The notes under the pieces: model-generated
Seen by the model: only the letters and a program-made list of their open reading frames with translations
Told to the model about the DNA's origin: nothing
Database searches by the model: none
From: a bacterium
GTDB taxonomy: Bacteria > Verrucomicrobiota > Verrucomicrobiia > Limisphaerales > RI-55
Reading direction: 5' to 3'
Length of the DNA: 64,000 nt
NCBI GenBank assembly: GCA_016124235.1
Contig: WGOC01000008.1
Location: 1-64,000 of the forward strand
In this document: one piece after another, positions 14,848 to 17,550 of the stretch
Layout of the letters: each line of letters opens with the position of its first letter
Numbering within the stretch: the stretch's first letter is position 1
Made by a program: the position numbers and the translations under genes

Positions 14848-16398
14848 TTAGCGGGCTTCAAACATACCGCTCACCCGGGCGAGCTCCTCGACCTGCACCT
14901 GCTGCGGGAAGCCCGACAAAATGCCGGTGACATTCCGAAACGCCTTGCCGATGTGCATGCCCTTCTGGTCAATCGTGAACTCGCGGATTTCCTTGTCGTG
15001 CATGGAACCTCGCATCTTCAGCACGGTGATTCCGCGTCGCATTTCGCCCAGCATTTCCACGTAACGCAACAGGATGATCGAGTCCGTGATCGTTGAGATA
15101 TGCGCTTCGGTGACCGAGCTGCCGCCCATGAGCGTGGGTGTTGTGGCGGTGAACAACCCGCCGATCTCGTGGTGCTTGATGAAGGATGTCAAACCGATGA
15201 CAAATTCGCGGTAGCCCTTCAAAGAGGCCACGCGCTCCAGCGCCGACAAGCTGTCCACCGCCAGGCGATGCGGTTTGAACTCTTCAACGAGCTTTTTGAT
15301 GCGAACAAGGTGATCCTCCAGGCCGGCGGATTCGGGATAAACACTGATCACCTTCAGCTTGCCCTTCTTCTCAAGGTCATCGAAATCGACGCCCCAACCG
15401 GTGGCGTTGCGGAACAACTGGTCGCGGCTTTCTTCAAAGGCCAGCAACAGGCTGCGCTCGCCCTCGGCCAAACCACCCGCGATAAACTCGGTCGTCATCA
15501 GCGTCTTGCCACAACCGGTCGCGCCGGTAACGAGGATGATCGAATCGCGGAAGAAGCCGCCCCCGCACATCTTGTCCAGCTCGACATTGCCGGAGGAAAT
15601 ACGCACGTCGGAGGATTTTTGCTTCAACTCAATGGCCGACAGCGGAATGACGATGATGCCTTCGCCCGGGATCACCGTGAATGGATATTCGCCCTTCTGG
15701 TGATGGGTGCCGCGGAACTTCAAGGTTTCAATGGTCCGCCGGCGCTTTTCGTCCTCGAGAATATTGCGGAGGATGATAACGTTGTCGGCGACGAATTCCT
15801 CAACGCCATACCGGCTGATCTCGCCGTATTCTTCGTTGCGTTCGGCGGTCATCACCGAGGTCACGTTCATGCCCTTCAACGCAGTGGCAATCCGGAACAA
15901 CTCGCGCCGAACCACTGCCGGCTCGGAGAACTGCGTGAAGATCGCCCCCAGGGAATCCACCGCGACGCGCTGGGCCTTCACCTTGTTGACCGCATTTTCA
16001 ATGCGCGCGAGCAGGGCACCCAGGTCGTAGGATCCGGCGACCACCACTTCCTCGGGTTGCGGCGAGGCATCCACGAACGCCCACTTCTTCTCGGCTTCCC
16101 ACGCTTCGATGTCCCAGCCCAGCCCCTTCATGTTTGCCCGGATGTCCTTGGGCGATTCTTCAAACGTGACGAAGACGCCCCGCTCACCTTCCTTGATTCC
16201 CTCGGCCAGGAATTGCACGGCGAACACCGTCTTGGCGCTGCCGGCGGAACCGGTCACCAGGGTGGTCCGTTGCTGCGGCAGACCGCCTTCGGTGATCAGG
16301 TCGAGCCCCGGAATGCCGGTGGCCAGTTTGCCAATGCTGTTGACTGAGGGGACGACGGCAGCGCCGGCACCGTTTCCTTTTGGTTGATTGCTCTTCAT
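14848..16398 (-). CDS. kaiC: KaiC circadian clock ATPase/autokinase
   Basis: The 516-residue product (S. elongatus KaiC is 519) is a double RecA-fold ATPase forming hexamers. CI has Walker A GSAGSAKT (50-57) and catalytic Glu pair TFEES (80-81); CII has GATGCGKT (292-299) and FEES (322-323). The CII phosphorylation segment VTEAHISTITD (429-439) retains all three residues equivalent to T426, S431 and T432 of the cyanobacterial clock (here T430, S435, T436). The C-terminal tail keeps FRNVTGILSGFPQ, where KaiA binds in cyanobacteria. I choose ATG 16398, 10 bases after the kaiB stop; a TTG at 16419 would overlap kaiB. A clock or timer role is inferred from these features and from the kaiB and KaiA-like genes directly upstream. 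Confidence 0.96.
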   Translation of the reverse strand: MKSNQPKGNGAGAAVVPSVNSIGKLATGIPGLDLITEGGLPQQRTTLVTGSAGSAKTVFAVQFLAEGIKEGERGVFVTFEESPKDIRANMKGLGWDIEAWEAEKKWAFVDASPQPEEVVVAGSYDLGALLARIENAVNKVKAQRVAVDSLGAIFTQFSEPAVVRRELFRIATALKGMNVTSVMTAERNEEYGEISRYGVEEFVADNVIILRNILEDEKRRRTIETLKFRGTHHQKGEYPFTVIPGEGIIVIPLSAIELKQKSSDVRISSGNVELDKMCGGGFFRDSIILVTGATGCGKTLMTTEFIAGGLAEGERSLLLAFEESRDQLFRNATGWGVDFDDLEKKGKLKVISVYPESAGLEDHLVRIKKLVEEFKPHRLAVDSLSALERVASLKGYREFVIGLTSFIKHHEIGGLFTATTPTLMGGSSVTEAHISTITDSIILLRYVEMLGEMRRGITVLKMRGSMHDKEIREFTIDQKGMHIGKAFRNVTGILSGFPQQVQVEELARVSGMFEAR

Positions 16399-16408
16399 GA
16401 TGTTCGTT

Positions 16409-16702
16409 TCAGTGGTCAAGTTTCTTGTTGGTGTCCAGCAGCTCGAGTCCGATCAACACCTTGTCGGTGTCGGACAAGTCGCCGATGATGCGCCGCAAAG
16501 GTGGCGGCAGGTGCTTGATGAGCGTCGGGGTGGCGAGGATCTTTTCGTCCTCCGCCAGCTGTGGCCGCTCGAGGACATCAATGACGAGCATTTCGTATTG
16601 GCCTCCCAGCTCGACCTCGCAAATTCGTCGGAGATTGGCAATGGCCCGCTCGGCGCGGGGCGTGTTGCCCGTGATGTAAAGTTTCAGTGTGAACTTGTTC
16701 AT
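16409..16702 (-). CDS. kaiB: KaiB clock protein
   Basis: The 97-residue protein has the whole KaiB sequence pattern: LKLYITGNTPRAERAIANL, LVIDVLERPQLAEDEKILAT, then PTLIKHLPPPLRRIIGDLSD and a C-terminal KVLIGLELL strand/helix. In cyanobacteria KaiB flips to a thioredoxin-like fold, binds phosphorylated KaiC and sequesters KaiA. Length is typical (about 100 aa). The start ATG 16700-16702 overlaps the stop of the KaiA-like gene as ATGA, which rules out the longer frame that would extend 40 codons into that gene. kaiC follows 10 bases downstream, so KaiA-like, KaiB and KaiC are probably made from one message. Confidence 0.97.
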   Translation of the reverse strand: MNKFTLKLYITGNTPRAERAIANLRRICEVELGGQYEMLVIDVLERPQLAEDEKILATPTLIKHLPPPLRRIIGDLSDTDKVLIGLELLDTNKKLDH

Positions 16703-17550
16703 GATTTCATTTGCCTGATTCGTTGCATGGGAGCGTGACTGCGATAAAAGCCGGTCAGGTAGCCCATCAATTCCAAAACGAGAAAACGCCCTTCCTGCAG
16801 GAACGCCTGTGACTTCTGCCACGGGACGTCGTTGACCTTCTGTTTCAACGCGTTGCTGTGAATTTCGATCACGTCGCGCGGCGACGCCCGGAGCAATCCC
16901 AGATCATCGGCCAGCGCCTGCAGTTGCTCGCCGCCCGTTCGCTCTCCCTTGAAGATCCGCTGCTCCAGCGCGAGTTCGAGCGAGTCCTTGTAGCGGTCCA
17001 CAAAACTCTCAAATTCATCCGGCGCGGTCTCGCGCAACGCCCCGCTGGAGTAGATGCGCGCGGTGACGGCGGTGCCGGGTGGCTGGGAGAGTCGGTCGAT
17101 GTCAACGAATTCCCGCTCCTGTTGTTCCTTCTGTCGTTTGGCGGCCAGCGCCTGCTGCAGCCGCGATCGCTCGATCGCGTAATGGATGGAGCGCGTCAAC
17201 AGCGGCGCGCCGATCTGTTGTTTCACCAGATAATCCTGCGCGCCCTGTTCCACCGCCTGGGTGGTCGTAAATTCGTCTTCCGCGGTCGCCAGCACCAACA
17301 CCGGCACCTGCGGGAATTTCCGATGGATCGCATCAAACGTCTCCACACCGGTGGAATCGGGCAGGTTGAGATCAAGCAGCACAATCTGGAAGCGGCTCGC
17401 GCCCAGCGTCTGCAGTGCCTCGCTCAGCCGGCTGGCGGTCTTCAGTTCAAACCGCGTGTTCGGAAGATCCGCGAAGGCCTTCTGCAAATGCTCCAGGTCC
17501 GTCGGATCATCTTCCACCAGCAACACTCGTATGGTTTCTTTCGTTTTCAT
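16699..17550 (-). CDS. KaiA-like protein: active receiver fused to KaiA/RsbU-type four-helix domain
   Basis: The 283-residue protein has a complete receiver (residues 7-125: E13/D14/D15, phospho-acceptor D60 in VLLDLNLPD, T89, K110), a charged linker (130-175) and an all-helical domain (about 178-272). That domain contains PRDVIEIHSNALKQKV (224-239) and ends FLVLELMGYLTGFYRSH (256-272), which I align from memory with the KaiA C-terminus (VVEIHMELMDEF... LIDVIAHLCEMYR) and with RsbU-N (PEEIISIHRKVL). KaiA is itself a pseudo-receiver plus this domain, stimulating KaiC autophosphorylation. ATGA overlap with kaiB makes the order kaiA-like/kaiB/kaiC. I choose ATG 17550 (MKTKETIRVLLVEDD). The receiver belongs to the same subfamily as those of neighbouring kinases. 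RsbU-like partner-switch function is the alternative. Confidence 0.78.
   Translation of the reverse strand: MKTKETIRVLLVEDDPTDLEHLQKAFADLPNTRFELKTASRLSEALQTLGASRFQIVLLDLNLPDSTGVETFDAIHRKFPQVPVLVLATAEDEFTTTQAVEQGAQDYLVKQQIGAPLLTRSIHYAIERSRLQQALAAKRQKEQQEREFVDIDRLSQPPGTAVTARIYSSGALRETAPDEFESFVDRYKDSLELALEQRIFKGERTGGEQLQALADDLGLLRASPRDVIEIHSNALKQKVNDVPWQKSQAFLQEGRFLVLELMGYLTGFYRSHAPMQRIRQMKS

Follow-up and report, generated by a model that had tools for sequence, protein, structure and literature searches.

A 64,000-nucleotide stretch of a verrucomicrobial genome (positions 1 to 64,000 of contig WGOC01000008.1, assembly GCA_016124235.1; Limisphaerales, RI-55 in GTDB), hereafter the window, bears on its minus strand a kaiA-like gene, kaiB and kaiC in head-to-tail order. 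In our assessment it is quite likely that this locus encodes a KaiA3-family protein, with an intact receiver and a KaiA-like predicted fold, directly upstream of KaiB and KaiC, and that the three products form a phosphorylation timer of the KaiABC type. The gene order, domains, active-site residues and conservation on which this proposal is built are read directly off the sequences, and the KaiA-type fold of the C-terminal domain (C-domain) is predicted. The original prediction, made without database searches, had placed such an operon at 14848-17550 with an ATGA overlap, and both are borne out: the ATGA at 16699-16702 is common to the stop of the kaiA-like gene and the start of kaiB, and 10 bases lie between the kaiB stop and the kaiC ATG, upstream of which a TTG at 16419 is a possible alternative start.

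The receiver of the kaiA-like protein has a complete active site, comprising the acidic pair D14/D15, the phospho-acceptor D60, T89 and K110; an aspartate of the D60 type is kept in 48 of the 64 receiver-bearing family members. Pfam and NCBIfam alone did not identify the C-domain: PF07688 (KaiA) has no match anywhere in the genome at E 0.001, RsbU_N stays sub-threshold on this protein (E 0.11; 13.1 bits against a cut-off of 25.5), and the Pfam scan found no phosphatase domain. Among the 81 family members, PF07688 matches seven and RsbU_N two at E up to 0.01. With PF07688 silent and RsbU_N sub-threshold, the assignment to KaiA therefore needed profile and fold evidence. Since a whole-protein fold search was swamped by receivers, the C-domain was modelled by itself, and the AlphaFold2 models contain four helices (residues 177-200, 207-219, 224-239 and 244-282). 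Both structure searches with the model ranked KaiA above RsbU, whose match was much weaker, in keeping with the earlier proposal of a receiver joined to a KaiA-type helical domain before kaiB; a C-domain profile search of PDB sequences found KaiA and no RsbU chains at E up to 10, and hhalign aligns the domain with canonical KaiA. For the assignment as a KaiA-like four-helix domain there is a tie with 3zta, the E-values are modest and the HH probability is low.

The PRDVIEIHSNAL segment and the C-terminal FLVLELMGYLTGFYRSH helix, which had been matched by eye to the KaiA C-terminus, are both present, and their key residues are conserved: R225, D226, G263 and Y269 are invariant in all 81 members, H231, E253 and L265 are kept in 80, M262 in 79, L259, E260 and R270 in 78, and P224 in 77, the remaining positions of the two segments being more variable. 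The protein fits the KaiA3 family, its C-domain being predicted to lie closer to KaiA than to RsbU. It has a receiver with the phospho-acceptor aspartate, a predicted C-terminal KaiA-like four-helix domain, a gene position upstream of kaiB and then kaiC, and a partner KaiC placed in the KaiC3 group by a tree that joins it with cyanobacterial KaiCs adjacent to KaiA3. It has neither the above-cut-off PF07688 match and acceptor-less pseudo-receiver of canonical KaiA nor the above-cut-off RsbU_N and PP2C phosphatase domain of RsbU.

The other two genes are readily recognized, although the NCBIfam KaiB models disagree on the window KaiB, PRK09301 passing (120 versus 110 bits) and TIGR02654 falling short (115 versus 145). 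Against PDB sequences the window KaiC scores 726 bits with 8zn5_B and 590 bits with 1u9i, which we take to be the S. elongatus KaiC. T430, S435 and T436, which align with the KaiC phosphosites T426, S431 and T432, are all kept, as are both Glu-Glu motifs and the A-loop. In a quick tree of 76 rows, from which partial, repeated, near-identical and weakly scoring rows had been dropped, the window KaiC falls among the KaiA3-linked KaiCs (Shimodaira-Hasegawa-like approximate likelihood ratio test support, SH-aLRT, 98), nearest to those of loci L045 (79% identity) and L047, and is separated both from KaiC1 (100) and from those KaiCs of Verrucomicrobiota that lack KaiA (100). The cyanobacterial KaiA3-linked KaiCs form a single clade of 15 rows (99) inside this wider group, with weak surrounding forks. 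The window KaiC and that of the other verrucomicrobial locus, L062, stand apart in the tree, but an approximately unbiased (AU) test does not reject a single clade (p 0.18), so we make no claim of separate entries into Verrucomicrobiota.

In all 61 KaiA3-linked KaiCs counted, including that of the window, the phosphosite block is present and the tail, 23-38 residues long, contains the motif R-x3-4-[LM]F, which was defined post hoc; the tail count leaves aside L031_1 (a KaiC split over two frames) and the second copies L004_2, L041_2 and L046_2, whose tails are without the motif. The motif is found in none of the eight fetched KaiC1 proteins, and neither it nor the phosphosite block occurs in any of 15 verrucomicrobial KaiCs without KaiA (L087-L101, one genome each; the weaker KaiC-like rows L102-L110 were not counted). 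Fourteen of these 15 have long tail extensions of at least about 70 residues, coiled-coil-like by eye, the exception being L099 with a tail of 7 residues; the window KaiC has no extension. The CI Walker A of the window KaiC reads GSAGSAKT (16228-16251, residues 50-57). Among the 61 KaiA3-linked KaiCs, the position before its lysine is occupied by Ala (39), Ser (16) or Gly (six), whereas all 15 verrucomicrobial KaiCs without KaiA have Gly there.

The C-domain matched 39 proteins, the window protein included, among them records named Crocosphaera, Limnospira and Acidobacteriota; relatives that bear a name are mostly labelled response regulators or PAS proteins and are thus easily missed. In a scan for relatives with one genome per species, 123 of 157 stretches were confirmed and 80 of these retained; the records nearest to the window genome may be missing from it. 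In 76 of the 80 loci kaiB comes next on the same strand and in 63 kaiC also follows, an association beyond chance; seven of the 17 loci without kaiC belong to Microcystis, in one strain of which kaiC3 is located apart (PMC11372060). By record titles, the 80 loci comprise 33 from Cyanobacteriota, 20 from Chloroflexota, seven from Pseudomonadota, four each from Nitrospirota and Thermodesulfobacteriota, two from Acidobacteriota, single ones from Helarchaeota, Armatimonadota, Tectimicrobiota, Planctomycetota, Calditrichota, Verrucomicrobiota and Elusimicrobiota, and three unplaced, giving 13 named phyla. The loci lacking kaiB number four, three from Chloroflexota and the sole one from Armatimonadota, so kaiA3-kaiB pairs are present in 12 named phyla.

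Within Verrucomicrobiota the combination is rare. The survey of the phylum proposed earlier for the upstream gene found the KaiA-like domain in two of 387 sampled genomes, that of the window (G000; 3.89 Mb, 47 contigs, 56% completeness) and G164, and among the 39 nearest genomes in the window's own alone; a KaiC-like match of some kind occurs in 55 of the 387, and it exceeds the circadian KaiC cut-off in the same two genomes only. The one verrucomicrobial locus of the relatives scan, L062, is from Verrucomicrobia bacterium OFTM198; its match (14377-14739 of its contig) coincides with that in G164 (C51, 14374-14739), and its KaiC has the same length, score and motifs as that of G164 (L085). Downstream of its intact kaiC, L062 also has a KaiC C-terminal fragment with one internal stop (9459-9629), perhaps the remnant of a second copy.

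Other loci show variations on this arrangement. In the Asgard set (L004 6001-10271, JAHPZH010000004.1), a KaiA3-type gene is accompanied by two kaiB-kaiC pairs, all on a contig of 604 kb from a Candidatus Helarchaeota metagenome-assembled genome (MAG); since the contig also bears archaeal TFIIB genes, this archaeal KaiABC set appears real. Candidatus Magnetominusculus xianensis HCH-1 (L043 5494-8228) has a KaiA-like gene 28 bases ahead of kaiB, followed by kaiC; PMC10278575 (2023) describes the magnetotactic bacteria of Nitrospirota as kaiBC-based. In L046 (Calditrichia), six KaiB-type frames and two KaiCs surround one KaiA-like gene in 12 kb. L029, L054, L057 and L071 have receiver-headed KaiA-like genes, with kaiB/kaiC not found in their stretches; the L057 assembly has kaiA3-kaiB-kaiC on a separate contig (L023).

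The N-terminal heads of the family are diverse. By Pfam, 63 of the 81 members have a receiver and 17 have PAS; by our own profile 17 KaiA-like proteins have no receiver (two of them cut by a contig end), ten of which were scanned singly. Genes preceding kaiB carry protoglobin (L052, Methylobacter), MASE3 (L078, Desulfobacteraceae), an extracellular solute-binding domain with PAS (L079), PAS-PAS (L067, Accumulibacter), receiver-PAS (L061, L063) or PAS (L055, L056, L060, L081). Dvornyk and Mei (PMC8113500) describe KaiA proteins headed by OmpR-like, REC, AtoC or PHA02030 domains, and report KaiA from one member each of Propionibacteriaceae and Planctomycetaceae. We tentatively raise the possibility, which falls somewhat short of probable, that KaiA3-type clocks are a widespread, modular form of prokaryotic timing whose heads (receiver, PAS, protoglobin, membrane sensor) can be exchanged and which extends to at least 12 phyla, Asgard archaea among them, with cyanobacterial KaiA3 as one branch, and that the verrucomicrobial locus is a complete example with phospho-gated KaiA input and, as output, a SasA analogue newly built from KaiB.

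The candidate for such an output is a hybrid kinase whose gene begins 223 bases past kaiC and is followed by two further two-component genes, each with a 4-bp overlap. Its N-terminus passes the Pfam KaiB cut-off (36.1 versus 27 bits) and is far nearer to KaiB (E 8e-13) than to the SasA N-domain (E 0.28); it does not qualify as a SasA-type KaiB-like sensor domain, and the protein may nevertheless function as SasA does. It shares with SasA a KaiB-like N-terminal domain on a histidine kinase near clock genes, and differs in adding two PAS domains and a receiver. In 374 genomes of the phylum, PF07689 has no other above-cut-off match in an open frame longer than 459 aa (the 459-aa frame is in G156); at the 80 other loci, with flanks of up to 6 kb, the longest frame with a KaiB domain has 391 aa (L044) and is a frame artefact; and a word-based, hence limited, search for relatives of the kinase N-terminus returned only itself. 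The L044 frame, which looked like a KaiA-KaiB fusion, was rejected as a stop-to-stop artefact, the KaiA-like frame ending at 6390 and the kaiB ATG lying at 6405. The kinase is, judging from sequence, most simply explained as a fresh KaiB fusion, likely independent of SasA, and is probably a SasA analogue providing the clock output. Schmelling et al. (PMC5520375) found SasA homologues outside Cyanobacteria to be without a KaiB-like domain, and in function the window kinase would be an exception.

The closest described counterpart is the KaiA3-KaiB3-KaiC3 system of Synechocystis, in which the KaiA3 family was tested (PMC11372060). Both have a receiver with the phospho-acceptor aspartate and a KaiA-like C-domain, a KaiA gene directly before kaiB and a KaiC without a coiled-coil extension, whereas kaiC lies elsewhere in Synechocystis but in the operon in the verrucomicrobium, where the gene of the KaiB-domain hybrid kinase comes after it. 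As the nearest stand-in for Sll0485, the protein of Synechocystis salina (L032) was compared; it is 49% identical over the C-domain residues. With the canonical cyanobacterial KaiABC the locus shares the A-B-C gene order, the predicted KaiA-type C-domain, the KaiC phosphosite pair and the A-loop. It differs in its true receiver, where canonical KaiA has a pseudo-receiver without the phospho-acceptor, in a KaiC outside the KaiC1 clade, in the CI Walker A (GTSGTGKT in two KaiC1 inspected) and in the tail motif. KaiA outside Cyanobacteria is not new in itself, since KaiA3 with kaiB3 and kaiC3 was published in 2024 from Roseiflexus, Chloroflexus, Chloroherpeton, Rhodospirillum and Bradyrhizobium (PMC11372060). 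That paper also cites Geron et al. 2024 for further KaiA orthologues outside Cyanobacteria, and part of the wider KaiA3 distribution may already be in print there. The matches listed in our literature searches included nothing on KaiA in Verrucomicrobiota, on KaiA with PAS or globin heads, or on KaiB kinases outside Cyanobacteria, and none of them described the wider phylum spread of KaiA3 or the swapped heads. The locus is a further KaiA3-KaiB3-KaiC3 system with a new output arrangement; as far as these searches show, the spread of kaiA3-kaiB pairs over 12 named phyla and the swapped heads are new as well.

Mechanistically, the KaiA-type domain would dimerise and capture the short C-terminal tail of the KaiC hexamer, which would keep the A-loop in its exposed position and increase autophosphorylation at S435/T436. 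Once phosphorylated, KaiC would recruit KaiB to the CI ring, where KaiB would sequester the KaiA protein, until KaiC dephosphorylates and lets go of both. Because the receiver active site is complete, we propose that a neighbouring histidine kinase sets the strength of KaiA action through it. On the output side, the KaiB-PAS-PAS-kinase-receiver protein might read KaiC in competition with KaiB, as SasA does, and hand phosphate to the adjacent receivers.

A substantial possibility, if not quite an even one, is that the KaiA3 homologue tunes KaiC as a switch or hourglass responding to stress or metabolic state, with no self-sustained rhythm. A complete phospho-acceptor receiver amid many two-component genes would suit such on-demand control, and according to PMC11372060 KaiBC systems lacking KaiA serve as hourglass timers or in the response to stress, and in vitro the trio of Synechocystis was a dampened oscillator; the locus has, however, the sequence features of a KaiABC cycle, including the phosphosite pair and A-loop tail. 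It is very improbable that the C-domain is instead an RsbU-type partner-switch module acting on an RsbT-like kinase, with the kaiBC adjacency incidental. The sub-threshold RsbU_N signal and the two family members with an RsbU_N match point that way, and the fold is common to KaiA and the RsbU N-terminal domain (PMC11372060), but the latter gives a much weaker structural match and has other gene neighbours.

We likewise regard it as highly unlikely that the Kai genes lie on a mis-binned contig of another phylum. G001, a genome of the same genus (82% complete), is without a KaiA-like gene and gives short matches only to window positions 6000-25900, none of them inside kaiABC, and the nearest KaiC relatives come from two MAGs, L045 with no phylum stated and L047 of Bryobacteraceae. 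Against this, a gene on the same contig (mnmG by eye) is best matched in the same-genus genome (67% identity, 953 bits) and next best in further genomes of the order (identity 61-68%, some of the matches being partial, at most 913 bits); these affinities make the contig look native and mis-binning unlikely. The Kai operon may still have arrived by transfer.

Under the preferred reading as a KaiABC-type timer, a verrucomicrobium with kaiA3-kaiB-kaiC likely runs, by analogy, a daily timer similar to the cyanobacterial one. In PMC11372060 KaiA is held to turn the KaiBC hourglass into a self-sustained clock, and PMC6627678 (2019) still restricts KaiA to Cyanobacteria. The Rhodobacter sphaeroides hourglass, like the window, has KaiB and KaiC outside Cyanobacteria but, as described in PMC10076222, is without KaiA and has a KaiC with a coiled-coil extension, which that paper proposes to be an old regulatory element that KaiA afterwards replaced. 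The pattern in Verrucomicrobiota, where KaiA goes with a short KaiC tail and KaiCs lacking KaiA mostly have a long extension, agrees with that proposal. Should these trios prove functional, many more phyla would be open to tests of circadian timing, and the exchanged sensor heads hint at signals that may set each clock.

Table. Features of the kai locus and its flanks in the window
Feature	Position	Strand	Description
kaiA3-type gene	16699-17550	-	283 aa; receiver, long helix, KaiA-type C-terminal domain (predicted)
Receiver domain	17215-17526	-	residues 9-112; Pfam Response_reg E 4e-20
KaiA-type helical domain (predicted)	16705-17022	-	residues 177-282; AlphaFold2 models, structure searches, hhalign to canonical KaiA
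kaiB	16409-16702	-	97 aa; Pfam KaiB 99.5 bits (cut-off 27), PDB KaiB E 5e-31
kaiC	14848-16398	-	516 aa from ATG; double-domain circadian KaiC; NCBIfam circ_KaiC 647 bits (cut-off 546), tree
CII phosphorylation block SVTEAHISTITDS	15079-15117	-	KaiC residues 428-440; Ser/Thr pair S435/T436
KaiC A-loop and short C-terminal tail GILSGFPQQVQVEELARVSGMFEAR	14851-14925	-	candidate KaiA3-binding peptide
KaiB-domain hybrid kinase	12441-14624	-	727 aa; KaiB-PAS-PAS-HisKA-HATPase-receiver
Receiver-PAS-histidine kinase	10777-12444	-	4-bp overlap with KaiB kinase gene
Single receiver	10352-10780	-	4-bp overlap with the preceding receiver-PAS-histidine kinase gene
Receiver, NarL-type regulator, receiver-HisKA_3 kinase and receiver genes	17897-20629	-	upstream of kaiA3; possible inputs or outputs

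A promoter scan of the locus did no better than chance. Each of the ten neighbour genes scanned (6015-12444 and 17897-20629) encodes a receiver, in five cases alongside further signalling domains. The Kai operon is set within about 20 kb of co-directional genes (6015-25732), mostly receivers and histidine kinases, the part at 20788-25732 being judged by eye.

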